In this document: positions 3,095-52,986 of the stretch, piece by piece
Layout: the number at the start of each line of letters is the position of its first letter
Position numbering within the stretch: the stretch's first letter is position 1
NCBI RefSeq assembly: GCF_025195095.1
Contig: NZ_JANAVZ010000001.1
Coordinates: 186,001-250,000 of the forward strand
From: Paracoccus maritimus
Lineage (GTDB): Bacteria; Pseudomonadota; Alphaproteobacteria; Rhodobacterales; Rhodobacteraceae
Reading direction: 5' to 3'
DNA length: 64,000 nt
Translations under genes and position numbers: made by a program
Notes under the pieces: generated by a model
The model's input: only the letters and a program-made list of their open reading frames with translations
What the model was told of the DNA's origin: nothing
Databases searched by the model: none

Positions 3095-3211
3095 TCGGGC
3101 TGCGGCGCCCGGCTCACCGGGTTGTGATCACGGGCTAAAAATGCTGTCATGTTCCATGTTCTGCCGTCCTGGCGAGACGTCGGGCGGATCCTTATCGCAG
3201 GCGGGGACGAC

Positions 3212-24809: not shown

Positions 24810-24819
24810 CGTCGGCATC

Positions 24820-26076: not shown

Positions 26077-26193
26077 GACGGTCCTCCTGTCAGGTGCGGC
26101 AAGCGCGTGTTGCGCCACTTGTGGGCCGGTTCGGGGGCGCAAGTCAATTCCTGACAGCTTTTCTAGGGCAATTCGGTGCAGCTCACAAGCAAA

Positions 26194-26221
26194 GGGCGAG
26201 CCTTCGCAGGAAGGCTCGCCC
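26194..26221 (-). terminator. Terminator downstream of the NCS1 permease gene
   Basis: A 12-bp perfect stem GGGCGAGCCTTC / GAAGGCTCGCCC with a GCAG loop. It lies 22 bp after the permease stop on the minus strand and is followed there by TTTGCTTG. It also separates this operon from the imelysin cluster. Confidence 0.8.
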
Positions 26222-26243
26222 GGACTTGTGCGTGTGGGGGAAA

Positions 26244-27599
26244 TCAGTCGCGGAACCGGCGCGCGGCGGGCAGGTACTGCATCAGCAGCCAATAGCTGAC
26301 GCCCGCCGGGACCAGGCTTGCATACCAGCTGATCCCCGAGAAGATCAGCGCCGCAATGACGCCGATCACCGTGGCGATGACGGCAGCCGGGTTGAAGCCC
26401 CGATAGGGACCGGTCTCGTCATAAAGATGACCCAGGTTCAGCGTCTGCTTTCGGATGATATAGTAGTCGACCACCAGGATCGCGAAGATCGGGCCAAGGA
26501 AGGCGCTGTAGGTCTGGATGAACAGGCTGAGGCCCGCTGCGGATTCGTCGCGGACCAGCATCCACGGGAAGGTGCAGAAGGCCAGCAGGCCGACCACCAC
26601 CGCCGAGGTCCGGAAGTTCAGCTTGAAGATGTCCATCAGCGCATAGGCGGGCGGGACGACGTTGTTCAGGATGTTCGTCGTGACCTGAGCGAAGGCGATG
26701 AACAGCAGCGTCACGACCAGCAGCAGCTTGTTGTCCACGGCGCTGGAGAAGACCTTGATCGGATCGACCTGGCCGGTGGCGCCCGAGACCATCAGGCCGA
26801 TCAGACCCATGAACAGCGTCGCGGGCAGGATCGAATTCGCATAGATCACAACCTGTCGGACGGGTCCGACCTCGTGGCGCAGTTCCCGGCTGTAGTCGGA
26901 CACGTTCAGCATCATCGTCGAATAGATACCCAGGAACAGCATCGTCGCACCCCAGAACGGTGCTCCCCAGGTGCCGTCCACATTGACCAGGTTTTCGCTG
27001 ATCTCGGTGCCGTATTTGCTGATGACGCTGAAGAACATGTAGACCAGCGACCCGATGATGAAGACCGAGCCGATGTTTTCCAGCCATTTGATGCCGTGAA
27101 AGCCCAGCACCGACAGACCGATCTGCAGGAACTGGAAGCCGATGAAGAAGACCCAGATGTTCGAGTAGCCGAACATCGTCTCGCTGACCAGGTTCAGCGC
27201 GCCCGCGCCGATCCAGCTTTGAAAGCCGAACCAGACGATCGCCGGGACCGACCGGACCAGTGCCGGAAGCCGCGTACCGGAAAAGCCAAAGGCCGACCGC
27301 GCCTGCACCATGAAGGGAATGCCGTATTTGTGACCGGCGCGGCCGTTGATCATCAGCGCGACGCCGATGACGGTACAGCCGATCGCGATGGCCACGAAGG
27401 TCTGCAACAGGTTCAGCGTGCCGACCAGGCCCGAACCGATCGTGAATGTGCCGATCGACACGCAGCCGCCCAGCCAGGCGAACAGGTAGGACCAGGGGTC
27501 CATGATGCGGGTCTGCTGCGGGGCCAGCGATTCCTCGCCCACGCCCTTTTCATGATCTTCGACCGGCACGGCGCCGGCGGTGAAATCGGTCTGGGTCAT
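26244..27599 (-). CDS. NCS1-family nucleobase/hydantoin/allantoin permease
   Basis: Twelve-helix sodium or proton symporter of 451 residues, LeuT fold, NCS1 family. Seen are the SYLFAWLGGCVSIGTFTIGSGL first helix, a YGIPFMVQARSAFGFSG segment typical of NCS1 carriers, and VWFGFQSWIGAGAL with a substrate-site tryptophan. Start ATG 27599 (MTQTDFTAG) has GGGAGTC upstream. It follows a hydantoin-type racemase gene by 29 bp, so hydantoins or allantoin are the likely substrates; this is inferred from context. Cytosine-type permease is the alternative. Confidence 0.85.
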   Translation of the reverse strand: MTQTDFTAGAVPVEDHEKGVGEESLAPQQTRIMDPWSYLFAWLGGCVSIGTFTIGSGLVGTLNLLQTFVAIAIGCTVIGVALMINGRAGHKYGIPFMVQARSAFGFSGTRLPALVRSVPAIVWFGFQSWIGAGALNLVSETMFGYSNIWVFFIGFQFLQIGLSVLGFHGIKWLENIGSVFIIGSLVYMFFSVISKYGTEISENLVNVDGTWGAPFWGATMLFLGIYSTMMLNVSDYSRELRHEVGPVRQVVIYANSILPATLFMGLIGLMVSGATGQVDPIKVFSSAVDNKLLLVVTLLFIAFAQVTTNILNNVVPPAYALMDIFKLNFRTSAVVVGLLAFCTFPWMLVRDESAAGLSLFIQTYSAFLGPIFAILVVDYYIIRKQTLNLGHLYDETGPYRGFNPAAVIATVIGVIAALIFSGISWYASLVPAGVSYWLLMQYLPAARRFRD

Positions 27600-28451: not shown

Positions 28452-29132
28452 ATGGACAAGCCGCTTGAGACAATCATCGTTGACAGCATCCTGGACGCGA
28501 TCGCCGATCAGCGGCTGCGCGCCGGGACCAAGCTGGGTGAACAGGCGTTGTCAGACCTGTTTGCCTGCAACCGTGCCCAGGTGCGCCGGGCGCTGGCGAC
28601 GCTGACCGCCTATCAGGTGGTCGATCACCTGCCCAATCGCGGCGCCTATGTCGCGACGCCGACGCCGCAGGACGCGCGCAACATCTTCCAGGCCCGCCGT
28701 GCCATCGAGACGGTCACCTGCCGCAATGCGGTGCGCGAGGCCACGGATGACGACATCACCGCCCTGCGCGCCCATCTGGCCGAGGAAGACGCCGCGAAGG
28801 GCCGCGACAACCGCCCGGCCGCTGTCAGGCTGTCGCGCGGGTTCCACGTGCTGCTGGGGCGGATCGGACGAAACCCGGTTCTGGCCCGCTATCTGGAAGA
28901 GTTGACGATGCGCAGTTCGTTGATCATCGGGCTTTATGCGTCGGGGCAGGCGACGCTGTGCGCCGAAGACGAACACGCGCAGATCGTCGAGGCGATTGAA
29001 CGGCGTGACGAGGCCGAGGCGCAGCGCCTGCTGGACCAGCATCTGCGCCATATCGAGTCGGGTATTGCCTTCGATGACAATCCGCCGGCGACGGGGGCAC
29101 TGTCGGCCGTGCTTGGCGACTGGCGCGGCTGA
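28452..29132 (+). CDS. GntR-family regulator with FCD domain
   Basis: 226-residue transcription factor. The N-terminal winged helix (IIVDSILDAIADQRLRAGTKL, then LSDLFACNRAQVRRALATLTAYQVV) is followed by RGAYVATPTPQDARNIFQAR and an all-helical FCD ligand domain (about 85-215). I chose ATG 28452 (MDKPLETII); an in-frame TTG at 28353 would place the operator inside the gene. It is divergent from the racemase/permease pair and probably controls it in response to the transported compound or a breakdown product. Confidence 0.88.
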   Translation: MDKPLETIIVDSILDAIADQRLRAGTKLGEQALSDLFACNRAQVRRALATLTAYQVVDHLPNRGAYVATPTPQDARNIFQARRAIETVTCRNAVREATDDDITALRAHLAEEDAAKGRDNRPAAVRLSRGFHVLLGRIGRNPVLARYLEELTMRSSLIIGLYASGQATLCAEDEHAQIVEAIERRDEAEAQRLLDQHLRHIESGIAFDDNPPATGALSAVLGDWRG

Positions 29133-29626
29133 TCCGTCGACTCGCCCATTGCGGGTGAAGGAAACCGCCGATCTGGCAGTAAACCCGGTTCTTGAGTCGT
29201 CTCGAAATAATCTTTTCCGATCCCACAAGTTAATCGCGGACTTCGCCCCTGCATCTGAAGGGAAGTGCTTCAGTCACTTGTGCCAAATACCCAGCTTCGC
29301 GTCAGATTTTCTTAGGATTTGTGAAAACAACACCCGAAAATTACAGCGGATTTCTGTCGTCTTGCCAACCTTGCGTGTTGGCGTGTTCATGCAAAACCCA
29401 TGTAGTCAAGGGGTTTACCTCGCCGGTAGCTTGCGCGGTATTCCGCCGAGATCTGGGCGCGACTCGGGATTGCGAAAATACGTTTTTGCGCGAACTTCAA
29501 GTTAAAAAATCCGAAGAATTATCAGAAAATTTATTGACATGGCAGGCTTGGCAGAGCTTTTTGGAAGGCGAGTTCGCGGCATCACCCCAACGCTGCGACA
29601 CCGCGAAATCAAATCGGTAGGTTGTT
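29133..29626 (+). promoter_or_regulatory. AT-richer leader region of the giant autotransporter gene
   Basis: 494 bp with no convincing gene and visibly lower GC than the rest of the window. It contains several inverted repeats: CACAAGT (29224-29230) with ACTTGTG (29276-29282) enclosing CTGAAG/CTTCAG (29255-29260, 29268-29273); GCCAAC/GTTGGC (29364-29369, 29377-29382); AAACCC/GGGTTT (29394-29399, 29411-29416). TTGACA at 29534-29539 is a good -35 element, but no clear -10 follows at the right distance. The ribosome site before ATG 29627 is weak (GGTAGG). Confidence 0.55.
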
Positions 29627-32600
29627 ATGCAACGTTTCGTCTGCACAACCGCACGGGGTGCGCTGTTGATGTTTACTTCGCTGGTTCCGCTGGGTGCATA
29701 CGCCCCCGGAACGTTGATGGTGACAGCGCTCGCCATATCGGTCGGCGTCGCCCAGCCCGTCCAGGCACAGACCACGCCCCCCCCGGATCCCTCCGTAACT
29801 TCTGCTGTTGGCGATCCGGTCACGAACCCGGTCACTGGAACCGAGACGACGGTCAGCGCGCTGCTGGTCGATCCGGCGGGCACACCGACAGCCGGCGACA
29901 CGGCCTTCGTCCAGACCGCAGATGGATATACGTTCCTGGTCAAGGCGGCGGGCGAGACGTTCTATAACAGCGACAGCCCGCCCGTCGCCTTCACCATCGG
30001 CAGCATAAGCGGCGGCGACGCCGAGGTCACCAGCCCCGGCGCGACAGGCACGCAGGCTTTTCCGCTGGGACAGACGACGACCGCGTTCAACGATGATTTC
30101 AACAGCACCGGAACGCCCGGAGACCTGACCCCGCCGGTGGATGTCAGCGGTCCGAACGGCGTGCGGCAGGTGGTCTTCGGTCGCGACGGCAGCAATGGAC
30201 GCGCGGGCGCGCTGTTCGTGCCGCCCAGTTCGGGCGGTGACGGGGCGGTGGGACCGACCCAGGTCCAGACACTAAGCAGCGACGTCAACGCGACCTCGAA
30301 TATCGGCTGGGAAATCGGCAGCGTCGGTGGCGCGGGTGGGCGCGGCGGCGATTCCTATCTCAGCTTCTGGGACGGTCGCGATGGCGGCGATGGCGGTGCA
30401 GGCGGTCGGGTGATCGCCACGCAGAGCGCCACCAGCACCATCCAGACCGCCGGAACAAACAACTACGGCATCTTCGCCTACAGCCGCAGCGGCCGCGCCG
30501 GCGACGGCGGCAGCGGCTTCGCGGCGCCCGGCGGCGGCACCGGCGGGCACAGTTCCGACGGCGGTTATGTCACCGTGAACCAGTCTGGCGAAATCTCGAC
30601 CAGCGGCACGAACGCGCATGGCATCTATGCACTCAGCGTCAGCAATAACGGCGGAAACGGCGGCAACCAATGGGGGCTTGTCGGCCAGTCCGGCAGCGGC
30701 GGCTTTGGCGGCGACGGCGGGCAGGTCGATGTGAATACCATGGCCGGTGCCACGATCCTGACGACCGGCGATTTCGCCAACGGCATTCTGGCGCAGTCGA
30801 TCGGCGGCTCGGGCGGGTCGGCGGGGATCAGTGGCAATCTGCTGGTGTCGCTGGTCGGCAGCGCCGACAACGGCGGCAACGCATCTGCGGTCAATGTCAG
30901 CAACGCGGGTGCGATCCAGACCCAGGGCGCGTTGTCGCGCGGGATCATGGCACAGTCCATCGGCGGCGGTGGCGGCGCGGGAGGCACGGCGGCCGGTCTG
31001 GTATCGCTGGCGCTGGGTGGCGTGGGATCGAACGGCGGGTCGGGCGGCGCGGTCAGCGTCACCAATACCGGCACCGGGTCGATCGTCACGACCGGTCTTC
31101 TGTCTGACGGGATCATGGCGCAATCGATCGGTGGCAGCGGCGGGCAGGGCGCGAATGCGTTCGGCCTTGTCGGGATCGGCGGCACCGGGTCGCGCGGCGG
31201 GAGCGGCGCGGCCGTCAGCGTCACCAATCTGGGCCGGATCGAGACAACGGGTGACGGCGCGCGCGGTATCGTCGCGCAATCCATCGGTGGCGGTGGTGGC
31301 GATGGCGGGTCGTCTGCGGGCATGGTCGCCGTCGGCGGAACGGGATCGGGCGGCGGCAGTGGCAACACCGTGACCATCGTCAACGACGGTGTCATCACCA
31401 CGCGCGGCGACGACGCGATGGGCATTCTTGCGCAATCCATCGGCGGTGGCGGCGGAAATGGCGGATCGGCCGGTGCAGTCGGCGCCTTTGTGGGCGTTGC
31501 CGTCGGCGGTGGCGGCGCGGCGGGTGGCGCGGGCGGCACCGCGAATGTCACGCTGTCCGACACGGATGCCAGCCAGCCATCGCAGATCCGGACCGAAGGC
31601 GACCGCGCGACTGGCGTCTTCGTGCAGTCCGTGGGCGGCGGCGGCGGCAATGGCGGCGGCGCGGTGTCGGTGGCCGTGGGCGCGTTCGGCGCCGCCTCGG
31701 TGTCGGTCGGCGGGTCAGGTGGCGCCGGCGGCGCGGGCGGCACGGCAATCCTGACCGGCAGCGGCGATGCCTCGGTCCAGACCGCCGGTGACGACGCCAC
31801 GGGCATCCTGATGCAATCCGTAGGCGGTGGCGGTGGCAATGGCGGCTATTCGGTCGCGGCGGCGGCATCGGGCGGACCGGTTTCCGGATCGCTGGCGGTG
31901 GGCGTTGGCGGATCGGGCGCCGCCGGTGGTGCGGGCGGCGAAGTGCGCGTCGGCACGATCGACGGCGGCGGCAACCTGACCGCGCCCGGATTTTCCGGCA
32001 GCGTGGTCACGACGGGTGATCGCTCGACGGGGATGTTGTTCCAGTCGATCGGCGGTGGCGGCGGCAATGGCGGGCTGGCGGTTGCCGGTTCGGGCGGCGG
32101 CTCGCTGATCTTCTCGGGCAGCGTGTCGGTCGGCGTGGGCGGCTCGGCCTCTGGTGGGGGTGCCGGAGGCCGGGTCCGCGTCTACACCGATTCGAACATC
32201 AACACGGTGGGCGACAGTTCGACCGCGCTGATGGTTCAGTCCATTGGCGGCGGCGGCGGCAATGGCGGTGGCAGCATCGCCGCGGGCGTCAACGGCAGTG
32301 CAGGCGGCGCGGCAGGCATCAATGTCGCGGTCGCGGGCAGCGGTGCTGCGGCGAGCGCGGGCGGTGACGTGAACCTGATCGCGGGCGGCGACCTGATCCG
32401 CACGCGCGGTCGCTTCTCGACTGGCGTTCTGGCGCAATCCGTGGGTGGCGGCGGCGGTAATGGCGGCTATGCGATTGCAGCCGGGGCCGACGGTGCCGGT
32501 GCGGGCGCGGGCAACGTCAATGTCGAGATCGGCGCCTCGGCCGGCGGTGGCGGCGCGGGCGGTGTGGTCGACGCGCGCGTAGACGCCGCCGTGGATACGC

Positions 32601-35600
32601 TTGGCGACGATTCAGGCGCCATCGTGGTGCAGTCCGTGGGCGGCGGTGGCGGCAATGGTGGCTTCGGCATCGCTGCTGGTGCTGCGGGCGGCGGGGCCGG
32701 GGCAGGCAATGTGACTGTGGGGCTGGGCGGTTCAGGCGGGTCGGGCGGCGCGGGCAACACCGTGATCGCGGCCGTGAACGGCGACGTGTCGACCCAGGGC
32801 GACCGGTCTGCGGGCGTTGTCGCGCAGTCCATCGGCGGCGGTGGCGGCAATGGCGGATTTGCCGTGTCGGGCGCGGTCTCTGGTGCGGGCGTCGGCAGCG
32901 GCTCGGTCGCGGTCGGTCTGGGCGGTGGCGCAGGCTCGGGAGGCGCGGGCGGCGCGGTGACCACGACGGTTACTGGCGACGTCACGACCGAGGGAACCGA
33001 TTCGACCGCCATTCTTGCGCAATCCGTCGGCGGCGGTGGCGGCAATGGCGGCTTCAGCGTGGCCGGAACCATTACCGGCAGCGGAACCGGCAGCGGCGCG
33101 GTCAGCGTAGGCCTTGGCGGTGGCGGCGGCGCAGGTGCTGCGGCAGGCGCCGTGACCTTGACCAGCGATGGCGCGGTCTGGACGCAGGGCGACCGGTCGT
33201 CGGGTGTCGTGGCGCAGTCGATCGGCGGCGGCGGCGGCAATGGTGGCTTCAGCGTGGCGGGCTCGGTCGCGGGCGCGGGCGTCGGCGCGGGCACGGTCAG
33301 TGTCGGGCTGGGCGGCAGCGGTGCCGGAGGCGGCGCTGCGGGTGCGGTCGATGCGACCTCGAACGGGACCATCCTGACCTATGGTTTCGCCTCGTCAGGC
33401 TTTGTCGCACAATCCATTGGCGGCGGCGGCGGCAATGGCGGTTTTACGGTCAGTGCGGCCCTGTCGTTTGCTGGCACCGGTGCGGGCAGTGTCGGAGTGG
33501 GACTTGGCGGCAGCGGCGCAGGCGGCGGTGACGGCGCGTCGGTGACCGCAGCGACATCGGCGAATGTCGAAACGCGCGGCGATGCGTCGACCGGCATTCT
33601 GGCCCAATCCATCGGCGGCGGCGGCGGCAATGGCGGCTTCAGCATCACGCCGACGCTGACCGGCGCTGGCGTCGGATCGGGCGCGATCTCGGTCGGGCTG
33701 GGCGGCAGCGGCGCTGGCGGCGGCAATGGCGGCAGCGTCGCTCTGACGGTCGCCAACGGCGTGTTGACGCGGGGCGATCAATCGGCGGCGGTGGTCGCGC
33801 AGTCGGTCGGTGGCGGCGGCGGCAATGGCGGCTTCAACGTCACGGCGGCGGGTACCGGCGCAGGCACGGGTTCGGGTGCCGTCGGCGTCGGGATGGGCGG
33901 GCGCGGTGCCGGTGGCGGCGCTGGCGGGACAGTGACCAGCGATGTGACAGGAAGCCTGACCACGCTTGGCGACAGTTCGGGCGGGCTGGTCGTGCAGTCG
34001 CTTGGCGGCGGTGGCGGCAATGGCGGCATGAATGTTAGCGCGGCGGTCGCGGTCGCGGGCGTGGGATCGGGTGGCGCGTCAGTCGGTCTTGGCGGCGCGG
34101 CGGGCGCGGGCGGCGATGCGGGCACGGTTACATCGTCGCTGACCGGCGATGTCGCGACCGTGGGCATCAACTCGGGCGGCGTGACCGTGCAATCGCTTGG
34201 CGGCGGCGGCGGCAATGGCGGGCTGAACGTCTCGGCCATCCTGACCGGCGCCGGGACCGGATCGGGCGGGGTTTCGGTAGGTCTTGGCGGCAGTGGCGGT
34301 GACGGCGGTGACGGCGCGGCCGCGGACAGCACGGTCACCGGCAATGTCGTGACCTTTGGCGCAAACTCGTCAGGCGTTGTCGTGCAATCCGCGGGCGGCG
34401 GTGGCGGCAATGGCGGCATCAGCGTTTCTGCCGCAGTCAACCTTAGCGGCACCGGAGGCGGTGCGCTGGCCGTGGGCCTTGGCGGCAGCGGCGGCGGCGG
34501 CGGCGATGCGGACACGGCGACCGGGCGGGTGACGGGCGATATCACTACGGTCGGCCTGAACTCTTCGGGCATGGCCGTGCAATCGCTTGGCGGCGGTGGC
34601 GGCAATGGCGGGATCAGCATAGCTGGCGCGCTGAACGCGGCCGGGACGGGCGGCGGCGCGGCCTCGGTCGGGATCGGCGGGTTTGGCGGTGACGGGGGAC
34701 TGGCCTCGGCGGCATCCGGCACGTTGACGGGCGACGTGACGACGCTGGGCGACAGCTCGGGCGGCGTGCTGGTGCAATCGGCCGGTGGCGGCGGTGGCAA
34801 TGGCGGACTCAGCGTGTCCGGCACCGTAAACCTGGCGGGCACTGGCGGCGGCGGTGTGGCCGTCGGGGTCGGGGGCTTTGGTGGCGGCGGCGGCGCTGCC
34901 GGGACGGCGACCGGAGAAGTCACCGGCAACGTGGCGACGGCGGGTACGGATTCCTCGGCCTTCACGGTGCAGTCGCTTGGCGGCGGTGGCGGCAATGGCG
35001 GCCTCAGCGTCGCCGGAACGCTCAGCGCGGCGGGCACGGGGTCTGGCGCGGTGTCGATCGGTGTCGGTGGCTTCGGCGGCGATGGCGGCGCGGCCGCGGC
35101 TGCGTCGGGAACGATGTCGGGCGATATCGTCACCGCCGGGGACCGGTCCGGCGGGGTGCTGGTGCAGTCGGCCGGTGGCGGCGGCGGCAATGGCGGGTTG
35201 AATGTCAGCGGTGCGGTCAGCCTTGCTGGCACGGGTTCGGGCGTTGCGTCGGTCGGGATCGGCGGCGCGGGCGGCGGTGGCGGTGCGGCCGACACGGCCA
35301 CGGGCAGCGTGACCGGAGATGTTGAAACGGCGGGCGTCGATTCCGCCGGAATTACGGTTCAGTCGCTGGGTGGCGGCGGTGGCAATGGCGGGATCAACGT
35401 CTCGGCCAGCCTGACCGCGTCCGGCAGCGGCGGTGGCGGTGCGGCCATTGGGGTCGGCGGTTTCGGAGGCGCCGGTGGGGACGCCGCTGCGGCACAGGCC
35501 AGCGTCGAGGGCGATGTGCTGACCGAGGGGGATCGTTCCGGCGGGGTGCTGGTGCAGTCGGCCGGCGGCGGTGGCGGCAATGGCGGCCTGAGCGTCGCAG

Positions 35601-38600
35601 GTTTCGTCAACCTGTCCGGCAGTGGCGGCGGCGGGGCTTCGATCGGCATCGGCGGCATGGGCGGCGGCGGCGGCAATGCCGGGACGGCCAGCGGCACGAT
35701 GACCGGCAATGTGACCACGGCCGGGGCGGATTCCGCCGGCTATTCCATCCAGTCGCTTGGCGGCGGTGGCGGCAATGGCGGCATCAACGTGTCCGGCACG
35801 CTGAGCGCGACGGGCAGCGGCGGCGGCGGCGCTGCCATTGGCGTGGGTGGCTTTGGCGGCGGTGGCGGCGACGCGGCTTCGGCCTTTGGCGCGCTGACCG
35901 GAGATGTCGCTACGGCGGGCGACCGTTCGGGCGGGGTGCTTGTGCAGTCGCTTGGCGGTGGCGGCGGCAATGGTGGGCTGAATGTCAGCGGTGCGGTCAG
36001 TGTTGCCGGAAGCGGCGGCGGCGCGGCGGCCATCGGCGTCGGCGGCATGGGTGGCGGCGGCGGCGCGGCGGACAGTGCGACCGGCAGCATGAGCGGCAAT
36101 GTCCTGACGCTTGGAAACGATTCGACGGGCATGACCGTGCAATCGCTTGGCGGTGGCGGCGGCAATGGCGGCATCAACGTGTCTGCCGCGATCAGCGCCG
36201 CCAGCAGCGGCAGCGGTGCGGCGGCCATCGGCGTCGGCGGCTTCGGCGGCAGCGGCGGCGATGCGGCCGCAGCCACAGGAACCATGGCTGGTGACGTACG
36301 GACCGAGGGCGACCGCTCGGGCGGTGTGCTTGTGCAGTCGCTTGGCGGCGGCGGCGGCAATGGCGGGCTGAACGTCAGTGGCGCGGTCAGCCTGTCCAGC
36401 CAGTCCAGCGGCGCGGTCGGCCTTGGGATCGGCGGGGCCGGCGGTCTGGGCGGAGCGGGCAGCACCGCGACCGGCCGCGTGACCGGCGACGTGACCACGC
36501 TGGGGGAAAATTCAACGGGCGTGATGGTGCAGTCTGTCGGCGGCGGCGGCGGCAATGGCGGGCTGAATGTCAGCGGCGCGGTCAGCATCGCGGGCAACGG
36601 CAGTGGCGCGGCGGCCATCGGCGTCGGCGGCTTCGGCGGTGGCGGCGGGATCTCGGGCGACGTGACTGGTGCCTATACCGGCACCGCGCTGACCTTCGGG
36701 GACCGCTCGGCCGGGGTTGTGGCACAATCGCTTGGCGGCGGCGGCGGCAATGGCGGCATCAACGTCTCGGCCGGCATTTCGGTCGGGTCCAGCTTCTCGG
36801 GGGCGGTCGGCCTTGGCGTCGGCGGGTTCGGCGGCGGCGGCGGACAGGCCGGTTCGGTCGATCACACGGTCGCGGGCTATGCCCAGACGTCGGGCGACGA
36901 TTCGATTGGCGTTCTCAGCCAGAGCCTTGGCGGCGGTGGCGGCAATGGCGGGCTGAATGTCAGCGGTGCCGTGTCGCTGTCGCGCCAGACCAGCGCGGCG
37001 GTTGGGCTGGGTGTCGGCGGGTTCGGCGGCAGCGGTGCCGATGCCGGCGCCCTGACGGCCTCGACCTATACCGGCGGTGTGCTAACCTTTGGCGACCGCA
37101 GTTCGGGCATCGTCACCCAAAGCCTTGGTGGCGGTGGCGGCAACGGCGGCACCAATGTCACCGGCAGCATCAACCTGACGCAGCAGAACGGCGGCGCGGG
37201 ATCGCTTGGCGTTGGTGGCTTTGGCGGAGGCGGCGGAAATGGCGGCGCGGTGACCAGCACTGTCGCGACCAGTGCCGCGACCGAAAGCTTCCAGACGCGC
37301 GGCGATGACAGCATCGGGGTTCTGGCGCAGTCGGTGGGCGGCGGCGGTGGCGCGGGTGGTCTGAATGTCAGCGGCGCGGTCAGCCTGACCGGCCAGTCAG
37401 GCGCTGCTGTGGCGCTTGGCGTCGGCGGCTTCGGCGGCGCGGGCGGCGACGCGGGAACGGTCGGCCTGGACGTGACCGGCACGGTCGGCACGATGGGCAA
37501 CCGCGCGCATGGCCTGATGGCGCAGTCGCTTGGCGGCGGCGGCGGCACGGGCGGCACGAATATCTCTGGCACGCTGGCGCTGACCAAACCGTCGGGGTCG
37601 AACACAATCTTTTCCATCGCGGCCGGTGTCGGCGGCTTCGGCGGCGGGGGCGGAGATGCCGGTGCGGTCGAACTTGGATATTCGGGCGCGCTGACCGCGC
37701 TGCCGCGCACGGTGAACGGCGACGGCACGATCACGCTGAACCAGACGCAGGGCGCGAACGGCATCGTCGCGCAATCCATCGGCGGCGGCGGCGGCGACGG
37801 CGGTGTGAACGTGACGGCGGGCGTCGCGATCAGCAGCAAGCCCGGCGCGGGCCAGACCGACCGCAGCAAGTCTTATGGCGTGCTGGTCGGTGTGGGCGGC
37901 TTTGGCGGAACGGGCGGCAACGCGGGCACGGTCGGTGTGGACGTGGCCGAAGGCAGCACAATCACCGCGCACGGCACCGGACGCTCGGGCATTCTGGCGC
38001 AGTCGGTCGGCGGCGGCGGCGGCAATGGCGGTCTGAACGTGTCGGGCGGAATCGTGTCCGACACGTCGTTGATCGTGGGTGTCGGTGGCATGGGCGGCAA
38101 TGCCGGACGCGCCGACGATGTGACCGTGACGGCGCGCGCCGATATCGGCGTGACCACCGATCCGGACGATTTCGGCGAACCCGACGATGATAGTTTCGAG
38201 GCCAAGCTGCGCGACATCTTGGGTGATACCATCGTCGATGAAGCCGAAGACATGGTCGATTCAAAGGGTCTCAAGACGCTGTTCGTGGATCTGGGCCTGT
38301 TCAAGGGTGACGAACTGCCGGAATCCGAGGGCTCGGCCGGCCTGCTGGCGCAGTCGATCGGCGGCGGCGGCGGCAATGGCGGCCTGAACGTGTCGGGCGG
38401 CATCGCGCTGAGCAAGGACGGCAAGATCCCGTCGGTGACCTTCGGAATCGGCGGCTTTGGTGGCGCGGCGAATGTCTCGGGCGATGTCCTGGCCGATCAT
38501 GTCGGCACGATCGGTGTCGAAGGCAACTGGAAGCACGGCATCTTCGCGCAATCGGTCGCCGGTGGCGGCGGCAATGGCGGGATGAATGTGAGCGGCCAGC

Positions 38601-41600
38601 TGAACTGGGGCAGTTCCGAAGGCACGGGCGGCGCCACCGATCTCAGCGTCGTGGCGGGGCTGGGCGGCCATGGCGGCGTCGGCGCGGATGCGGGCGATGT
38701 GGATGTGATCTCGGACGGCGATATCGCCACGCGCGGCTATCACGCACGCGGCATCTTCGCGCAATCCATCGGCGGTGGCGGCGGCACGGGCGGCATGAAT
38801 GTCACGGCGGTCGGCACCAAGGACAGCTCTCCGGTGGCGATCGGGGTCGGCGGCTTCGGGGCCAGCGGCGGTGATGCGGGCGATGTCAGCGTGACGCGCG
38901 GCACCGAGACGGCAGCGGCGGGACGGATCGACACCGATGGCGTCGGCGCGCACGGGATCGAGGCCAGCAGCATCGGCGGCGGCGGCGGCGACGCCGGGAT
39001 CAACGCGGTGCTGGGCTTCAGCAAGACGACCGGATCGGGCAGCAATGGCGGCACCGCGGGGGACCGCAAGACGCCCACCAATACCGGTGTCGATGACAGC
39101 GTGATCGCCAATTTCAACTCGGTCCTTGACGAACTTGAAGGCAAGACCAGCACCACCACCCCCAGCGGCGGCAAGCAGGTGAATTCGGCTGTCGTCGCCA
39201 TCGGCGGCTCGGCCGGGAACGCGGGGAATGGCGGGCAGGTCGATGTGACCCATTTCGGCGATGTCGAAACCCGGCAGAACGGCAGTCACGGCGTGTTCGC
39301 GCAATCGCTTGGCGGGGGCGGCGGCAACGCGGCCTTCAATCTGGGCCTGATCTTCGAAACCGGCAACACTGACAAGAACAAGGGCTTCGGCCTTGCCATC
39401 GGCGGTGGCACCGGCGATGGCGGCTCGGGCGGCGATGTCGCCGTCGCCAATACCGGCGACGTGGACACCCATGGCGATGACGCGCACGGCATCTTTGCGC
39501 AGTCGGTCGGCGGCGGCGGCGGCAATGCCGGCTATACCTCGCTGACCAATGGCGGCGAGGGCGGCAATGTCGCGATCCAGATCGGCCGCACCGGCGGAAC
39601 GGGCGGCACCGCGGGCGATGTCATCGCCAGCAGCGATGGGGACGTGGTGACGCGCGGCGCCCGTTCGCACGGGCTGTTCGCGCAGTCGATCGGCAATGGC
39701 GGCGGCAATTCCAGCGCGACCTCGGTTTCGCTGACCACGCCCAAGACGAACGACAAGAAGGGCACGACCTTCAAGCTGAGCGTTGGCCTTGAAGGCGGAG
39801 AAGGCGGCGCGTCCGGTAATGTCACGGCCGGAGCGGACGGTCTGATCTATACGATGGGCGATGATTCCCACGGCGTCTTTGCGCAATCGGTGGGCGGCGG
39901 CGGCGGCACCGGCGGTGGCGCGGGCGGTGCGGCGGGTGCGGGCACCTCCTATTCGTTGAATATCGGCGGCAGCGGCGGCACCGGCGGCGTATCCGGCACG
40001 GTCGATGTGACCAGCACGGCCCGGATTGCGACCGAAGGTGCGCGCGCCACCGCCATCATGGCACAATCCGTGGGTGGGGCGGGCGGCACCGGCGGCTATG
40101 TGAAAAGCGGTACCACGGCGCTCAGCATCGCCAAGAACCTGATCAAGGGGGCCGAGATCGGCACCACCGCCTCGATCAATATCGGCGGCAGCGGCGGTGA
40201 GGGCATGACCTCGGACGACGTGACGGTGGACAGCGGCGGGATCGTGACGACCCTGGGCGAATCCGCGCATGGGATCTTTGCGCAGTCGGTCGGCGGCGGT
40301 GGCGGCATGGGCGGTCTGGTGGACAACACCATCGTCAATCTGCGCTCGACCATCGCGACGACCGCCACGCTGTCGATCGGCGGCAGCGGCGGCACCGGCG
40401 CGGTGTCGGGCGATGTCGACGTCACCAACCGCAGCACGATCATCACCTCGGGCAAGAAATCCGCAGGCATCCTTGCGATGGCCGTGGGCGGCGGCGGTGG
40501 CGACGCGCAATATGTGCGCAACATCATCGCCGGGCCGAATGCCGACAACAGTTCCCGCAATGCGCTGCTGATCGGCGGCTCGGGCGGGACGGGCGCGGCA
40601 GGCGGCGCGGTCAGCGTGGCCAACATCTCGGGCGCGCGCATCCAGACCTCTGGCGCGGAAAGCCACGGCATCTTCGCGCAATCGGTGGGCGGCGGCGGCG
40701 GCAACGGCAGCGATGTCCTGTCGGTATCGGTCAGCCGTCCCGGCAGCACCGCCAAGGTCAGGCAGCAGGGTCTGCAATTGGGGATCGGCGGTTCGGGTGG
40801 CACCGGCGGCACCGGCGGCGCGGTCGATGTCCGCAATGACGGGGTGATCGTCACGACGGGCGCGGCTGCACATGGCGTGCTGGCACAGTCTGTCGGCGGC
40901 GGCGGCGGCAATGGCGGCTATTCGATCACCGGCACCGCGACCCTGCAGAAGGGGACGTCTTCGGATCCGACCATGGCACTGAATGTCGGCGGCTCGGGCG
41001 GCAGCGGCAATGCGTCGGGCGCGGTCAGCGTCACGAATGGCGGGCAGATCGACGTCGCGGGCGACGGCGCCTATGGCGTGCTGGCGCAATCCGTCGGCGG
41101 CGGCGGTGGCAATGGCGGCATGGCCATAGCGCTGTCGCTGAACGACCTGGCTGCACAGGCCAAGGGGCAATCCTATACCAAGCTGGCCGTGGGTGGCGCG
41201 GGCGGCGACGGTGCGGATGGCGGCGATGTCACCGTCACCCACAGCGGCATGATCACCGTGCGTGGCGACAACGCTTATGGCATCTTCGCGCAGTCGGTCG
41301 GCGGTGCGGGCGGCAATGCAGGGCTGTCGATCTCGACCCCCGTGGCGATGGCGGCGGACTATGTCATCTCGACCCTTCTGGGCGCACGCACCGGAACCGA
41401 CGGGACGGCGGGCACGGTTACCGTGAACAGCACCGGCGATATCGTCGTGCTGGGCGCGAACAGCCAAGCGATCCTCAGCCAGTCGGTGAATGGCGGCGGT
41501 GGCAACGTCCAGACCTTCCTGGACTTCACCAAGACCGAGGCTGCGTCGGCGCGGGCCTTGGCGGCGGCACCCGAGACCGGCCCCGATGTCGGTGTCACCA

Positions 41601-44485
41601 GTAGCCTGTCGCTTGGCGGCGAGGATGTCAGCGGCAGTGTCGGATCGGACGTAACCCAGGTTCATCGCGGCGACATGCTGACGACGGCGGCGCGGTCAAC
41701 GGGCATGCTGCTGCAAAGCGTCGGCGGCGGCGGCGGCACGGCAGTGACGGATGTGAAGGCCGGCCGCACCGGGGATCTGAGCCTGAATGCCATGCTGGGC
41801 GCGGTGAACACCAATGATGCCGGGGGCGGCGACATCACCGCCCGCCGGAACGGCACGGTCGAGACGCGCGGCGACATGTCTGCCGGCGGGCTGACCCAGT
41901 CCGTGGGTGGTGGTGGTGGTCGCTTGATGCTGAATACCGGCGCCGGGCAAGCCGGATCGGGGCAGCGCAGCGCCAATGTCACGCTGGGTGCCGATCCGTC
42001 CTTCCGCAACGATGGTGGCGACGTGTCGCTGCGCCTGCGCGGCGCGGTCGCGACCCGCGGCGATCACGCCAGCGCCCAGATCGTGCAGTCGATCGGCGCG
42101 GGCGGTGGGCAGGCCATGATGGCAGGGCTGGATCGTGCCCGAGTCACCCTGGGGGCCAGCGACGGCTCGACCGGCGATGGCGGTGCGATCAGGCTGGCCA
42201 ATCGCGGCAACGTGCAGACCGCGGGGGGTGGGGCGCATGGTTTCGTGCTGCAGTCGATCGGTGGCGGTGGCGGCATGGTCGCGACCGACCTGCGTGCCGG
42301 TTCGCTGAGCGTGAACCTGTCCGATGAAAATGGTGGCGACGGCGGCGATATCGGCTTTGAGAATCGCGGCTATGTCCTGACGGCCGGTCGGGATGCGGTC
42401 GGAGTCCTGGCACAAAGCCTTGGCGGCGGCGGCGGTGCGGTGGACGGGCTGTATCGCGGTAGCGCGGGCGGCGCGGGCAGCGGCGGTGCGATCGATATGG
42501 ATCTGACCGGCAACATCCTGTCGCTTGGCCGGGATGGCATCGCCGTGATGGCGCAATCGGCGGGCCGCGATGGCGCGGACAGCATCTCGGTGGCGCTGGA
42601 CGGCGTGATCGTCGGCGGCAGCGGAACAGCGTCGGGCGGCGTATTGTCGGCCCGCGCACCGACCCGGCCCGCGGGATCGACAGCGGGTCCGGCGGCCATC
42701 GTCATTGATGGCGGCACGGTGAACACGGTCGATCTGTCCTCGGGCAGCTTCCTGATGTCGCTCAACGACCGCATCCTTTCGGGCGGCAGCGGTGCCGATC
42801 AGGTGACACTGAACGGCGGCGCGGTCGGCAACGTCGATCTGGGCGGAGGTGCCAACCGGCTGGCGGTGACGCGCGGCGCAAGCTTTACCGCGCTGGACCG
42901 GATCGATCTGGGCGATGACGGTGCGATGCGGATCGACGGCGATCTGTATCTGGGCGGCGATCCTTATCTGGCCGGTGGGCGCAACCTTGGCGTCCGGACC
43001 CGTGCAACCCAGTTCCGACTGACCCAGAATGTCAGCCAGACCACCGAGCTGACCGGATCGCTGAGCTTTGGTCGCAGCGCGACCTATACGCCCGATGTCT
43101 ATTTCCGCACCGATGGCGCGGCGGGCGGTGACAGCGACCTGATCCGTGTGTCCGGCGACGCGACGTTGTCGGGCACGATCCGGCCGGTCCTGCAGTTGTT
43201 GCAGCGCACGGCGCCGCTTGCGCTGATCCAGGCCGAGGGTTCGGCCATCGACGACAGCACGCGCGTCGTCGATACGGTGGTGATCGACTATTCGATCGAT
43301 GTGTCGCGGTCGGGCGGCATCAGCAGCATCAACCTGCTGGCAGATGCCGATTTCGCAGTGGCCGGCAGCAATCGAAACCAACGGCTGCTTGGCGATCACA
43401 TCGGACGGGTTCTGGCCGGGCAGGGGTCGGCGCAGATGGGGCCGATGTTCGCGCTGATCGCGAACATGCAGACCCGCGCCGAGGTGATCGACGCGCTGGA
43501 CCGGCTGAGTTCGGAAGGCTATGCGGCGACGCAGGTCGGCGCGCTGTATTCAGGCCGGCAGTTTGCGCGCACGATGTCGAATTGCGACAAGGCGAACATG
43601 GCTGGCGCGGCGGACGATCCGCGCGCCTGTTACTGGATCGCGGCCGAAGCCGCCAATCTGGATCGCGACGCGACCAGCGAAAGCAAGCGTTTTGCGCTGG
43701 ACACCTCGACCTTCTCGGCGGGAATGCGGATGCCGGTCGGGGACGAGCTGTATCTGGGCATGGCCGCCGGGTTCGAGAATTACAGCATGTCGAACGGCGA
43801 CCGGTTCATGGCCGATGGCAAGCGTGCCCATCTTGGCGTCTCGCTGGCGACCTATCGCGGCCCGTGGGAGGTGTATGGCCAGCTGTCCGGCAGCAAAGGC
43901 GATGCGGATGCGACCCGCGTGATCGGCATCTCGGGGGTGCTGCCCAACGGCGATGTCGTGACGGCGGGCACGGCCCATGTCAGCCAGACCATCAGCCAGG
44001 CCAATATCCGGCTTGGCGGCGGCTATCGCTATCAGCCGGCGGGCAGCAATTTCTATCTGCGGCCCGGCCTGGACCTGGATGCGACATGGCTGCATTCGGC
44101 CTCGGCCAGTGAAGGCGGCGACCGCTATGGGCTGGAGTTGAAGAAGACCAGCCAGTGGGTCCTGTCGGCGACGCCATCGGTCGAGCTGGGCACCGACATC
44201 GCGACCGATGGCCAGAACCGGATGCGCGCCTATCTGCGCGGCGAGATGACATTCTCGAACGCCGACGACGTGTATGTGAACGCGACCTTCCCGGGCGCGG
44301 ACCCGTCCGACGGCACGTTCCGCAACTACAGCCAGATCAGCGACCGTACCCGCCGCTTGAAGGCCGGAATGACCTTCTATGGCAAGGACGGGGACGGCTA
44401 CATGAATGTCGGCTATCAGGGCGAATGGGGACGTCAGGGAACTGTCGGTCATACCGCCAGCCTCAGCTTCGGAATGCGTTTCTGA
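29627..44485 (+). CDS. Giant glycine-rich repeat autotransporter (type Va-like, 4952 residues)
   Basis: A very large outer-membrane autotransporter. Residues 1-47 are a long signal peptide (cleavage about VQA-QTT). Residues about 390-4310 are a passenger with about 60 copies of a GIxxQS(I/V/L)GGGGGNGG-type motif, alternating with short beta-strand-like segments (NVSGAVS, AAIGVGGFGG, VTGDVTT). The passenger is almost free of cysteine. Residues about 4330-4650 are a non-repeat linker ending in helical MGPMFALIANMQTRAEVIDA. The last 300 residues form the beta-barrel, ending in LSFGMRF with terminal Phe. The reading frame is unbroken through 14.9 kb. Likely an adhesin, biofilm or surface-layer fibre; function is inference. 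Repeat family members with QSIGGGGG motifs occur in other alphaproteobacteria. Confidence 0.93.
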   Translation: MQRFVCTTARGALLMFTSLVPLGAYAPGTLMVTALAISVGVAQPVQAQTTPPPDPSVTSAVGDPVTNPVTGTETTVSALLVDPAGTPTAGDTAFVQTADGYTFLVKAAGETFYNSDSPPVAFTIGSISGGDAEVTSPGATGTQAFPLGQTTTAFNDDFNSTGTPGDLTPPVDVSGPNGVRQVVFGRDGSNGRAGALFVPPSSGGDGAVGPTQVQTLSSDVNATSNIGWEIGSVGGAGGRGGDSYLSFWDGRDGGDGGAGGRVIATQSATSTIQTAGTNNYGIFAYSRSGRAGDGGSGFAAPGGGTGGHSSDGGYVTVNQSGEISTSGTNAHGIYALSVSNNGGNGGNQWGLVGQSGSGGFGGDGGQVDVNTMAGATILTTGDFANGILAQSIGGSGGSAGISGNLLVSLVGSADNGGNASAVNVSNAGAIQTQGALSRGIMAQSIGGGGGAGGTAAGLVSLALGGVGSNGGSGGAVSVTNTGTGSIVTTGLLSDGIMAQSIGGSGGQGANAFGLVGIGGTGSRGGSGAAVSVTNLGRIETTGDGARGIVAQSIGGGGGDGGSSAGMVAVGGTGSGGGSGNTVTIVNDGVITTRGDDAMGILAQSIGGGGGNGGSAGAVGAFVGVAVGGGGAAGGAGGTANVTLSDTDASQPSQIRTEGDRATGVFVQSVGGGGGNGGGAVSVAVGAFGAASVSVGGSGGAGGAGGTAILTGSGDASVQTAGDDATGILMQSVGGGGGNGGYSVAAAASGGPVSGSLAVGVGGSGAAGGAGGEVRVGTIDGGGNLTAPGFSGSVVTTGDRSTGMLFQSIGGGGGNGGLAVAGSGGGSLIFSGSVSVGVGGSASGGGAGGRVRVYTDSNINTVGDSSTALMVQSIGGGGGNGGGSIAAGVNGSAGGAAGINVAVAGSGAAASAGGDVNLIAGGDLIRTRGRFSTGVLAQSVGGGGGNGGYAIAAGADGAGAGAGNVNVEIGASAGGGGAGGVVDARVDAAVDTLGDDSGAIVVQSVGGGGGNGGFGIAAGAAGGGAGAGNVTVGLGGSGGSGGAGNTVIAAVNGDVSTQGDRSAGVVAQSIGGGGGNGGFAVSGAVSGAGVGSGSVAVGLGGGAGSGGAGGAVTTTVTGDVTTEGTDSTAILAQSVGGGGGNGGFSVAGTITGSGTGSGAVSVGLGGGGGAGAAAGAVTLTSDGAVWTQGDRSSGVVAQSIGGGGGNGGFSVAGSVAGAGVGAGTVSVGLGGSGAGGGAAGAVDATSNGTILTYGFASSGFVAQSIGGGGGNGGFTVSAALSFAGTGAGSVGVGLGGSGAGGGDGASVTAATSANVETRGDASTGILAQSIGGGGGNGGFSITPTLTGAGVGSGAISVGLGGSGAGGGNGGSVALTVANGVLTRGDQSAAVVAQSVGGGGGNGGFNVTAAGTGAGTGSGAVGVGMGGRGAGGGAGGTVTSDVTGSLTTLGDSSGGLVVQSLGGGGGNGGMNVSAAVAVAGVGSGGASVGLGGAAGAGGDAGTVTSSLTGDVATVGINSGGVTVQSLGGGGGNGGLNVSAILTGAGTGSGGVSVGLGGSGGDGGDGAAADSTVTGNVVTFGANSSGVVVQSAGGGGGNGGISVSAAVNLSGTGGGALAVGLGGSGGGGGDADTATGRVTGDITTVGLNSSGMAVQSLGGGGGNGGISIAGALNAAGTGGGAASVGIGGFGGDGGLASAASGTLTGDVTTLGDSSGGVLVQSAGGGGGNGGLSVSGTVNLAGTGGGGVAVGVGGFGGGGGAAGTATGEVTGNVATAGTDSSAFTVQSLGGGGGNGGLSVAGTLSAAGTGSGAVSIGVGGFGGDGGAAAAASGTMSGDIVTAGDRSGGVLVQSAGGGGGNGGLNVSGAVSLAGTGSGVASVGIGGAGGGGGAADTATGSVTGDVETAGVDSAGITVQSLGGGGGNGGINVSASLTASGSGGGGAAIGVGGFGGAGGDAAAAQASVEGDVLTEGDRSGGVLVQSAGGGGGNGGLSVAGFVNLSGSGGGGASIGIGGMGGGGGNAGTASGTMTGNVTTAGADSAGYSIQSLGGGGGNGGINVSGTLSATGSGGGGAAIGVGGFGGGGGDAASAFGALTGDVATAGDRSGGVLVQSLGGGGGNGGLNVSGAVSVAGSGGGAAAIGVGGMGGGGGAADSATGSMSGNVLTLGNDSTGMTVQSLGGGGGNGGINVSAAISAASSGSGAAAIGVGGFGGSGGDAAAATGTMAGDVRTEGDRSGGVLVQSLGGGGGNGGLNVSGAVSLSSQSSGAVGLGIGGAGGLGGAGSTATGRVTGDVTTLGENSTGVMVQSVGGGGGNGGLNVSGAVSIAGNGSGAAAIGVGGFGGGGGISGDVTGAYTGTALTFGDRSAGVVAQSLGGGGGNGGINVSAGISVGSSFSGAVGLGVGGFGGGGGQAGSVDHTVAGYAQTSGDDSIGVLSQSLGGGGGNGGLNVSGAVSLSRQTSAAVGLGVGGFGGSGADAGALTASTYTGGVLTFGDRSSGIVTQSLGGGGGNGGTNVTGSINLTQQNGGAGSLGVGGFGGGGGNGGAVTSTVATSAATESFQTRGDDSIGVLAQSVGGGGGAGGLNVSGAVSLTGQSGAAVALGVGGFGGAGGDAGTVGLDVTGTVGTMGNRAHGLMAQSLGGGGGTGGTNISGTLALTKPSGSNTIFSIAAGVGGFGGGGGDAGAVELGYSGALTALPRTVNGDGTITLNQTQGANGIVAQSIGGGGGDGGVNVTAGVAISSKPGAGQTDRSKSYGVLVGVGGFGGTGGNAGTVGVDVAEGSTITAHGTGRSGILAQSVGGGGGNGGLNVSGGIVSDTSLIVGVGGMGGNAGRADDVTVTARADIGVTTDPDDFGEPDDDSFEAKLRDILGDTIVDEAEDMVDSKGLKTLFVDLGLFKGDELPESEGSAGLLAQSIGGGGGNGGLNVSGGIALSKDGKIPSVTFGIGGFGGAANVSGDVLADHVGTIGVEGNWKHGIFAQSVAGGGGNGGMNVSGQLNWGSSEGTGGATDLSVVAGLGGHGGVGADAGDVDVISDGDIATRGYHARGIFAQSIGGGGGTGGMNVTAVGTKDSSPVAIGVGGFGASGGDAGDVSVTRGTETAAAGRIDTDGVGAHGIEASSIGGGGGDAGINAVLGFSKTTGSGSNGGTAGDRKTPTNTGVDDSVIANFNSVLDELEGKTSTTTPSGGKQVNSAVVAIGGSAGNAGNGGQVDVTHFGDVETRQNGSHGVFAQSLGGGGGNAAFNLGLIFETGNTDKNKGFGLAIGGGTGDGGSGGDVAVANTGDVDTHGDDAHGIFAQSVGGGGGNAGYTSLTNGGEGGNVAIQIGRTGGTGGTAGDVIASSDGDVVTRGARSHGLFAQSIGNGGGNSSATSVSLTTPKTNDKKGTTFKLSVGLEGGEGGASGNVTAGADGLIYTMGDDSHGVFAQSVGGGGGTGGGAGGAAGAGTSYSLNIGGSGGTGGVSGTVDVTSTARIATEGARATAIMAQSVGGAGGTGGYVKSGTTALSIAKNLIKGAEIGTTASINIGGSGGEGMTSDDVTVDSGGIVTTLGESAHGIFAQSVGGGGGMGGLVDNTIVNLRSTIATTATLSIGGSGGTGAVSGDVDVTNRSTIITSGKKSAGILAMAVGGGGGDAQYVRNIIAGPNADNSSRNALLIGGSGGTGAAGGAVSVANISGARIQTSGAESHGIFAQSVGGGGGNGSDVLSVSVSRPGSTAKVRQQGLQLGIGGSGGTGGTGGAVDVRNDGVIVTTGAAAHGVLAQSVGGGGGNGGYSITGTATLQKGTSSDPTMALNVGGSGGSGNASGAVSVTNGGQIDVAGDGAYGVLAQSVGGGGGNGGMAIALSLNDLAAQAKGQSYTKLAVGGAGGDGADGGDVTVTHSGMITVRGDNAYGIFAQSVGGAGGNAGLSISTPVAMAADYVISTLLGARTGTDGTAGTVTVNSTGDIVVLGANSQAILSQSVNGGGGNVQTFLDFTKTEAASARALAAAPETGPDVGVTSSLSLGGEDVSGSVGSDVTQVHRGDMLTTAARSTGMLLQSVGGGGGTAVTDVKAGRTGDLSLNAMLGAVNTNDAGGGDITARRNGTVETRGDMSAGGLTQSVGGGGGRLMLNTGAGQAGSGQRSANVTLGADPSFRNDGGDVSLRLRGAVATRGDHASAQIVQSIGAGGGQAMMAGLDRARVTLGASDGSTGDGGAIRLANRGNVQTAGGGAHGFVLQSIGGGGGMVATDLRAGSLSVNLSDENGGDGGDIGFENRGYVLTAGRDAVGVLAQSLGGGGGAVDGLYRGSAGGAGSGGAIDMDLTGNILSLGRDGIAVMAQSAGRDGADSISVALDGVIVGGSGTASGGVLSARAPTRPAGSTAGPAAIVIDGGTVNTVDLSSGSFLMSLNDRILSGGSGADQVTLNGGAVGNVDLGGGANRLAVTRGASFTALDRIDLGDDGAMRIDGDLYLGGDPYLAGGRNLGVRTRATQFRLTQNVSQTTELTGSLSFGRSATYTPDVYFRTDGAAGGDSDLIRVSGDATLSGTIRPVLQLLQRTAPLALIQAEGSAIDDSTRVVDTVVIDYSIDVSRSGGISSINLLADADFAVAGSNRNQRLLGDHIGRVLAGQGSAQMGPMFALIANMQTRAEVIDALDRLSSEGYAATQVGALYSGRQFARTMSNCDKANMAGAADDPRACYWIAAEAANLDRDATSESKRFALDTSTFSAGMRMPVGDELYLGMAAGFENYSMSNGDRFMADGKRAHLGVSLATYRGPWEVYGQLSGSKGDADATRVIGISGVLPNGDVVTAGTAHVSQTISQANIRLGGGYRYQPAGSNFYLRPGLDLDATWLHSASASEGGDRYGLELKKTSQWVLSATPSVELGTDIATDGQNRMRAYLRGEMTFSNADDVYVNATFPGADPSDGTFRNYSQISDRTRRLKAGMTFYGKDGDGYMNVGYQGEWGRQGTVGHTASLSFGMRF
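32405..37110 (+). repeat. 24-unit tandem coding repeat, exact 195-bp period
   Basis: The codon for the Gln of the QS-GGGGG motif occurs at 32435, 32630, 32825 and then every 195 bp up to 36920, with no exception over 23 intervals. The next spacing on each side is 198 bp. Each 65-residue unit reads roughly DRSGGVLVQSxGGGGGNGG, then an xVSGAVxLAG strand, a VGxGGFGGGGGxA turn and TGxVTGDVxTxG. Units differ by substitutions but contain no length change. Confidence 0.92.
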
Positions 44486-51895: not shown

Positions 51896-51919
51896 TCGGG
51901 CCTCCTTGAGGCATAAGAT

Positions 51920-52021
51920 ACCAAAGCAATACCAAATGAAAAGAGGAAAGTTCGATAGCACTGTAAAATCCAAATTTCAGTGGATTTCACGAAGGGGGTT
52001 TACAATTGGTATTGTTTTGGC
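51920..52021. promoter_or_regulatory. Divergent control region of the amino-sugar locus with paired operators
   Basis: Two 16-bp arms, ACCAAAGCAATACCAA (51920-51935) and TTGGTATTGTTTTGGC (52006-52021), are inverted copies matching at 14 of 16 positions and face opposite genes. Between them lies a 7-bp perfect inverted repeat AAATCCA / TGGATTT (51966-51972, 51981-51987). The TGGTATT/AATACCA half-sites resemble those bound by GntR/HutC regulators of the NagR/NagQ group, so the product of the nearby GntR gene is the likely ligand. Confidence 0.65.
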
Positions 52022-52048
52022 ATTATCTAGCGAAACAGGAGGAATCAC

Positions 52049-52930: not shown

Positions 52931-52986
52931 CGATTTTCGGATTTCAACCACGGGCCGGGACAAGGCCCGAACTCAGGGAGACGACC

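Follow-up and report, generated by a model that had tools for sequence, protein, structure and literature searches.

A giant glycine-rich autotransporter of Paracoccus maritimus whose repeat units are predicted to stack into a rigid surface blade

The DNA analysed here (the window) is a 64,000-nucleotide stretch of Paracoccus maritimus (assembly GCF_025195095.1, contig NZ_JANAVZ010000001.1, positions 186,001 to 250,000). A single gene dominates it, encoding a glycine-rich autotransporter of 4,952 residues. The frame (14,859 bases, 23% of the window) has one stop, at its end, among 4,952 codons, and the other five frames of the same stretch hold 13 to 163 stops each, bearing out the original prediction of one unbroken frame. 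The protein is 27.8% glycine and 0.1% cysteine, and is differentiated into the following regions.

29627–44485, + strand: giant autotransporter gene, 4,952 residues (single frame; relatives; frame of equal length in genome G078)
29627–29770, + strand: likely signal peptide, residues 1–48, with an AxA-like end (VQA/Q), judged by eye
29771–30316, + strand: N-terminal part before the units, residues 49–230, predicted distal tip, conserved (median non-glycine identity 0.64)
30317–30760, + strand: degenerate glycine-rich units, residues 231–378 (GGx runs at residues 234, 253, 303, 342 and 358)
30761–42496, + strand: 60 units detected by the unit profile, residues 379–4290
32435–37117, + strand: regular array, residues 937–2497, 24 units (23 at a spacing of 65, the last at 66)
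34421–36919, + strand: site of whole-unit losses in seven relatives, residues 1599–2431 (placement inside the repeat set by the aligner)
35750–36919, + strand: six units modelled by AlphaFold2, residues 2042–2431 (alignment A1)
42587–43366, + strand: strand-rich, glycine-poorer stretch between units and linker, residues 4321–4580 (model of the C-terminal part)
43373–43576, + strand: predicted helical linker or plug, residues 4583–4650 (model helices 321–388)
43628–44482, + strand: translocator barrel, residues 4668–4952, with 12 long strands counted in the model and a terminal Phe

An assembly artefact, which had been named as a possible undoing of the prediction, is unlikely, because a second Paracoccus assembly (G078) contains an open frame of equal length (4,954 codons by the same count applied to both). 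Locus L002 of Paracoccus sp. R12_2, part of the G078 frame, repeats the motif spacings of the window protein except for one (68 against 69 residues), and its C-terminal 361 residues are identical. The start codon is supported by the Paracoccus salsus relative, which begins with nearly identical residues.

Exact motif counts in the protein are 34 for QSxGGGGGNGG, 49 for QSxGGGGG and 53 for QSxGG, and there are 106 GGx runs of at least two triplets. A profile built from the units of 121 proteins (the window protein among them) detects 60 units at a domain E ≤ 0.01. The earlier estimate of about 60 copies therefore holds for units and is too high for the exact motif (34 to 53). A looser motif yields 55 spacings, of which 26 are exactly 65 residues. 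Two units are much longer (117 and 112 residues; residues 2792–2908 and 3114–3225), and by eye their long inserts, poorer in glycine, look helical; P. salsus and P. homiensis have the 117-residue spacing as well, and P. onchidii has one of 118.

Relatives are numerous: of 1,297 candidates scored, 671 proteins of comparable length pass E ≤ 0.001. The search used words drawn from the whole protein, mostly the passenger, and may miss relatives with a diverged passenger. Among the best 120 of the 671, the median glycine fraction is 0.26 and 107 end in Phe. Taken with the window protein, they have 65 as the commonest spacing (1,793 of 5,109; next is 66, n = 328). Named relatives include proteins of Paracoccus, Ruegeria, Roseovarius, Tropicimonas, Ochrobactrum/Brucella and Martelella, and beyond the class of Prosthecobacter, Luteolibacter, Rubritalea and one cyanobacterium. 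The suggestion that length and regularity are extreme had to be dropped: the eight longest of the 120 span 5,492 to 7,036 residues, and one carries 67 copies of QSxGGGGG. Some records bear odd names. A close relative in Ochrobactrum quorumnocens (P0005) is filed as a ‘sperm-activating peptides family’ protein, probably a misnaming from short glycine-rich matches, and two partial relatives (P0045, standing for 117 member sequences, and P0127) are filed under Salmonella enterica, possibly through mislabelling or contamination.

The C terminus places the protein among type Va autotransporters. Scanned apart, it matches the PF03797 barrel (E 8.4e-20, 72 bits against a cut-off of 26), the sole match to that family at E ≤ 0.001 in the 3.93-Mb genome; together with the predicted helical linker, the 12 strands and the final Phe, this agrees with the barrel ending in Phe that had been read from the sequence. 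A YadA-type anchor of the trimeric (type Vc) class is not seen, the C-terminal 661 residues matching only PF03797 at E ≤ 0.001, and the whole barrel is predicted from one chain, contrary to a type Vc assignment. In the model of the C-terminal 690 residues, the VIA rows are restricted to model residues 362–690. The stretch at residues 4321–4580 is probably, judging from the same model, the end of the β-helix. Alignment A2 shows two nearly invariant cysteines (residues 4653 and 4668; 43583–43585 and 43628–43630; C391 and C406 in its own numbering) in the segment that joins the last linker helix to the first barrel strand; a disulphide at the base is possible.

Separate searches of passenger and barrel, as originally proposed, identified the barrel and left the passenger unassigned: Pfam gives nothing at E ≤ 0.001 for the whole protein (the barrel appearing only when scanned apart) and nothing at E ≤ 0.1 for four passenger pieces (residues 1–600 and 2426–4325), and NCBIfam has no model for the four autotransporter pieces searched. 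Literature searches (the motif; polyglycine with adhesins or autotransporters; glycine-rich giant autotransporters) found no paper on this repeat by title or start of abstract, most subscription journals lying outside their coverage, and a search within PMC13243192 found no mention of autotransporters. As to function, calling the protein undescribed was fair, and the family is widespread and seemingly unstudied.

Each unit contains two glycine motifs. The first reads GGG GGN GGF, N having a frequency of 0.87 and F one of 0.50 over 1,761 distinct units from the 121 proteins. Over the same units, glycine frequencies in the second are 1.00, 0.98, 0.05; 0.89, 0.70, 0.40; 0.92, 0.86, 0.02; and 0.55, 0.61, 0.02. 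They follow GGX triplets, high at inward positions and low at outward ones, the pattern of a polyglycine-II bundle, and the window units agree.

We modelled six consecutive units, as had been suggested for three to six; one of five models is confident, and it predicts a β-helix bearing a glycine slab. Its best structural match is a springtail antifreeze protein (7jjv), on whose nine-helix bundle it superposes over 125 residues at 1.6 Å, and its glycine segments are predicted as left-handed three-residue helices packed in two layers, as in polyglycine-II bundles. The passenger strands superpose on the β-helices of Vag8, Fap2 and pertactin, consistent with the β-helical passenger of type Va proteins.

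We conclude that the passenger is probably a composite solenoid, some 60 units stacked into a rigid surface blade about 30 nm long. Each 65-residue unit would likely form one turn, a β-helix wall with two polyglycine-II helices. In the model, β-helix strands (unit positions 45–65 and 1–3) lead into the first glycine helix, GGGGGNGG (positions 4–11), then a β-hairpin tip (positions 12–32, by eye mostly missing from 52-residue units) and a second, returning glycine helix of GGX triplets (positions 33–43). First helices would make up one layer of a slab and second helices the other, arranged like the odd and even helices of the springtail protein. β-strands and polyglycine-II helices both repeat at about 4.8 Å, so slab and β-helix could grow in step, and the hydrogen-bonded glycine slab would stiffen the blade. 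Sixty turns of 0.48 nm would give 29 nm, to which the strand-rich end next to the barrel would add. The expectation of a repetitive passenger, with glycine blocks between short β-strands and glycine parts stacked along one face, agrees with this predicted fold. The expectation of an extended fibre does not: 60 one-turn units would rise only about 29 nm.

Such a fibre is what a somewhat unlikely alternative would give, an ordinary β-helix adhesin whose glycine stretches are flexible loops forming no slab, with about two small turns per unit and a thinner, longer shape of 55–60 nm. β-helix passengers are the rule in the class, and the 65-residue unit, with four or five strands, could divide into two short turns; the low confidence of the other four models and the weak Foldseek matches described below also fit. 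Loops, however, should accept insertions. The glycine segments occupy 19 of 65 unit positions, yet receive only 30 of 820 insertions of three or more residues (5,888 profile matches), and 29 of 848 with a rotated profile (6,546 matches), 26 of these at position 43, the final residue of the second segment. Insertions fall instead in the hairpin tip and β-helix loops; the glycine segments alone take few of them in either register. The inward–outward contrast in second-motif glycine and the specificity of the 1.6 Å superposition likewise speak against loops. An apparent absence of such insertions from the β-helix part was an artefact of the profile ends and was dropped, the rotated profile placing 816 there.

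The array also changes length by whole units. Compared with P. salsus (4,560 residues, 0.86 identity over aligned residues), the sole gap of at least 10 residues is one of 390, six central units that P. salsus lacks. Among seven relatives compared singly, 16 of 17 gaps of at least 65 residues lie within residues 1599–2431, all 16 being multiples of 65; the remaining one, in P0014, inserts 114 residues near residue 103. Aligner gap counts over 90 relatives (gaps of at least 40 residues being multiples of 65 in 208 of 341 cases in the array, against 2 of 129 elsewhere) were set aside as evidence, the aligner favouring whole periods in repeats, and span lengths were used instead. For relatives of at least 60% identity over aligned residues, the span 1002–2498 could be mapped in 36 of 41: 15 differ by exact multiples of 65, 17 come within one residue of such a multiple and four are off by 9 to 12. 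Of the flanking spans, 2800–3960 keeps its length in 25 of 39 relatives and 300–1002 in 23 of 34, and in none is the difference a multiple of 65. By these sequence comparisons, the array is thus the part that changes in length, by whole units. Pairs of units have probably been duplicated, since at residues 1522–2301 units two apart are more alike (0.70) than neighbours (0.61). At window positions 34190–36529, QSA and QSL units alternate as a 130-residue super-repeat, even lags being more alike than odd. Recent gene conversion was considered and dropped: third-codon-position identity between units is 0.44–0.51 (with no baseline for unrelated codons), which suggests old copies.

Conservation runs the other way from that of a fast-changing ligand binder. 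On non-glycine positions only, in up to 49 relatives (the best 49 of the 120), median identity is 0.64 for residues 49–230, 0.65 for 231–936, 0.50 for 937–1630, 0.60 for 2301–3951, 0.45 for 4321–4580 and 0.35 for the barrel. Residues 231–936 are better conserved than the barrel in 43 of 43 mapped relatives; for the N-terminal part this holds in 37 of 41. As far as relatives found mostly through passenger words can show, this argues for the distal part having a preserved role. A variable adhesin or antigen specific to a host, comparable to PE_PGRS proteins or the classical virulence autotransporters, would accord with repeat numbers that differ among species, and PGRS domains are likewise proposed to form polyglycine-II slabs (PMC9436101), but a rapidly varying binder would show the reverse gradient, and we hold this reading to be quite improbable.

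Several points weigh against the stacked blade. Four of the five six-unit models have mean predicted local distance difference test scores of only 63, 62, 54 and 37. Foldseek alone returns no match at E ≤ 0.001 (best 0.036; 7jjv at E 0.052, probability 0.08), and the unit profile finds no PDB sequence at E ≤ 1, short glycine-rich sequences being hard for such a search. AlphaFold may have been trained on the polyglycine bundles of earlier springtail structures, and the assignment of one turn per unit derives from residue ranges and counts in the model. Units were picked by the pattern QS.G.GG at a spacing of 65, which makes glycine at positions 4, 6 and 7 true by construction; in the second motif, glycine is still 0.40 at position 38 and only 0.55–0.61 at positions 42–43, which leaves the triplets loose at those places. 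The two registers disagree on deletions, which do not set the glycine segments apart (267 of 9,239 deleted positions lie in them in the first register, 64 of 160 in the rotated one). At an identity of at least 50%, only 22 of 66 mapped array spans differ by exact multiples of 65. The gene is also patchy in Paracoccus (7 of 125 genomes). Of the other structural searches, PDB sequences gave best values of E 0.12 for the N-terminal part and 0.022 for the C-terminal 690 residues, which we took as chance, and a viral structure library yielded weak matches, a single one at E ≤ 0.001.

The outward faces bear on binding. An ice-binding or crystalline-surface-binding protein, its flat glycine slab acting like springtail antifreeze proteins, would suit the best structural match and the second-motif outward residues, of which A, S, T or V make up 0.53 in the window and 0.46 over the 1,761 units; FcAFP binds ice through its even-numbered layer (PMC10235112). 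The first-motif layer, however, has these residues at only 0.01 (window) and 0.06 (all units), one of its three positions being glycine by the search pattern. The second layer is 0.17–0.32 polar or charged and 0.10–0.14 large hydrophobic, leaving no uniform flat face, and the organisms of the named relatives, Ruegeria, Ochrobactrum/Brucella and Prosthecobacter among them, are not obviously cold-living. We hold such a binding role to be very improbable. A broader idea, speculative and unlikely, is that about 100 glycine helices assemble in two layers in step with the β-helix to present a crystal-like flat face binding ordered partners, whether the same blade on a neighbouring cell, a crystalline polysaccharide or ice.

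The surroundings of the gene comprise two further features.

28452–29132, + strand: GntR/FCD-type regulator, the upstream neighbour (Pfam FCD 2.1e-21, GntR 1.1e-10)
29133–29626, + strand: 494-base intergenic stretch, presumed promoter region (sequence)

A scan for sigma-70-like promoters found none on the + strand and one promoter-like site on the opposite strand; a terminator scan found none, and Rfam and tRNA scans of the window gave no matches. Divergent genes upstream encode an Asp/Glu racemase family protein and an NCS1-type permease; downstream lie an AHSA1-family gene and an ArsR-type regulator gene. We compared four other Paracoccus loci (E ≤ 1e-15), covering roughly 12 kb on the upstream side and 10 kb on the downstream side. 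The upstream trio is common to R12_2 and P. salsus, where the GntR/FCD regulator is also upstream; this regulator is not in the compared stretches of P. homiensis, P. onchidii and genome G099. The six downstream genes tested are common to R12_2 only. The P. homiensis locus has none of the tested neighbour genes in common, P. onchidii shares only one imelysin and a di-haem oxidoreductase gene, further out, and a distant fifth locus (G099) has nothing in common upstream within 7.6 kb. The barrel is present in those 7 Paracoccus genomes as five close copies (the source genome counted) and two at only 25% identity; the unit profile picks out 12 genomes among 295 from the family (nearly one per genus) and 5 among 289 from the class, the source genome counted in each. 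With neighbours little shared and few genomes carrying barrel or unit profile, the autotransporter gene stands alone and is patchy. Elsewhere in the window, a cluster at positions 22275–26292 combines a gene for a di-haem oxidoreductase with two of the imelysin family; the oxidoreductase gene and one of the imelysin genes recur upstream of the P. onchidii autotransporter. Positions 48128–54243 (NagA, two SIS-domain proteins, a GntR/UTRA regulator and a solute-binding protein) are a probable amino-sugar cluster.

Export through a signal peptide and a barrel is established for the autotransporter class, whose passenger N termini lie distally. The protein would cross the inner membrane via its signal peptide and the outer membrane via its barrel, and the passenger would stack from the barrel outward, carrying the conserved N-terminal part at its far end. 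Gain or loss of whole units would alter length without breaking the stack. Because the central array gains and loses whole units, it is most likely a stiff spacer of adjustable length that holds the conserved distal part off the membrane; the likely use, by analogy only, is adhesion or cell–cell contact. Polyglycine-II bundles are known in few solved proteins; a continuous slab along a β-helix, if true, would be a new design for a stiff rod, and would explain both the quarter-glycine composition of the 120 relatives and the favoured 65-residue unit.

Several known systems share parts of this architecture. With type Va autotransporters (NalP and EstA barrels; Vag8, pertactin and Fap2 passengers) the protein has in common the PF03797 barrel, helical linker, terminal Phe and β-helix superposition; unlike them, its passenger runs to about 4,500 residues, its turns are each predicted to carry two glycine helices in a continuous slab, and its distal passenger is more conserved than its barrel. 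The Granisotoma antifreeze protein 7jjv and other polyproline-II (PPII) bundle proteins share GGX triplets and two layers of alternating short helices; glycine-rich examples named in PMC8409303 are Obg, acetophenone carboxylase and the phage S16 adhesin. In contrast, the helices predicted here are borne on a β-helix, number about 100, lack a sequence match and have different outward faces. The mycobacterial PE_PGRS proteins offer a proposed polyglycine-II sandwich at the outer membrane that tolerates length change (PMC9436101). Of the PGRS slabs named there, the largest counts 54 helices, about half the number predicted here. PE_PGRS proteins differ in export route and in the β-helix of the window protein, and a PE domain is not seen, residues 1–600 matching no Pfam family at E ≤ 0.1. 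Uncharacterised relatives, recorded as ‘autotransporter outer membrane beta-barrel domain-containing protein’ or as ‘beta strand repeat-containing protein’, have units of the same kind and the same kind of barrel.
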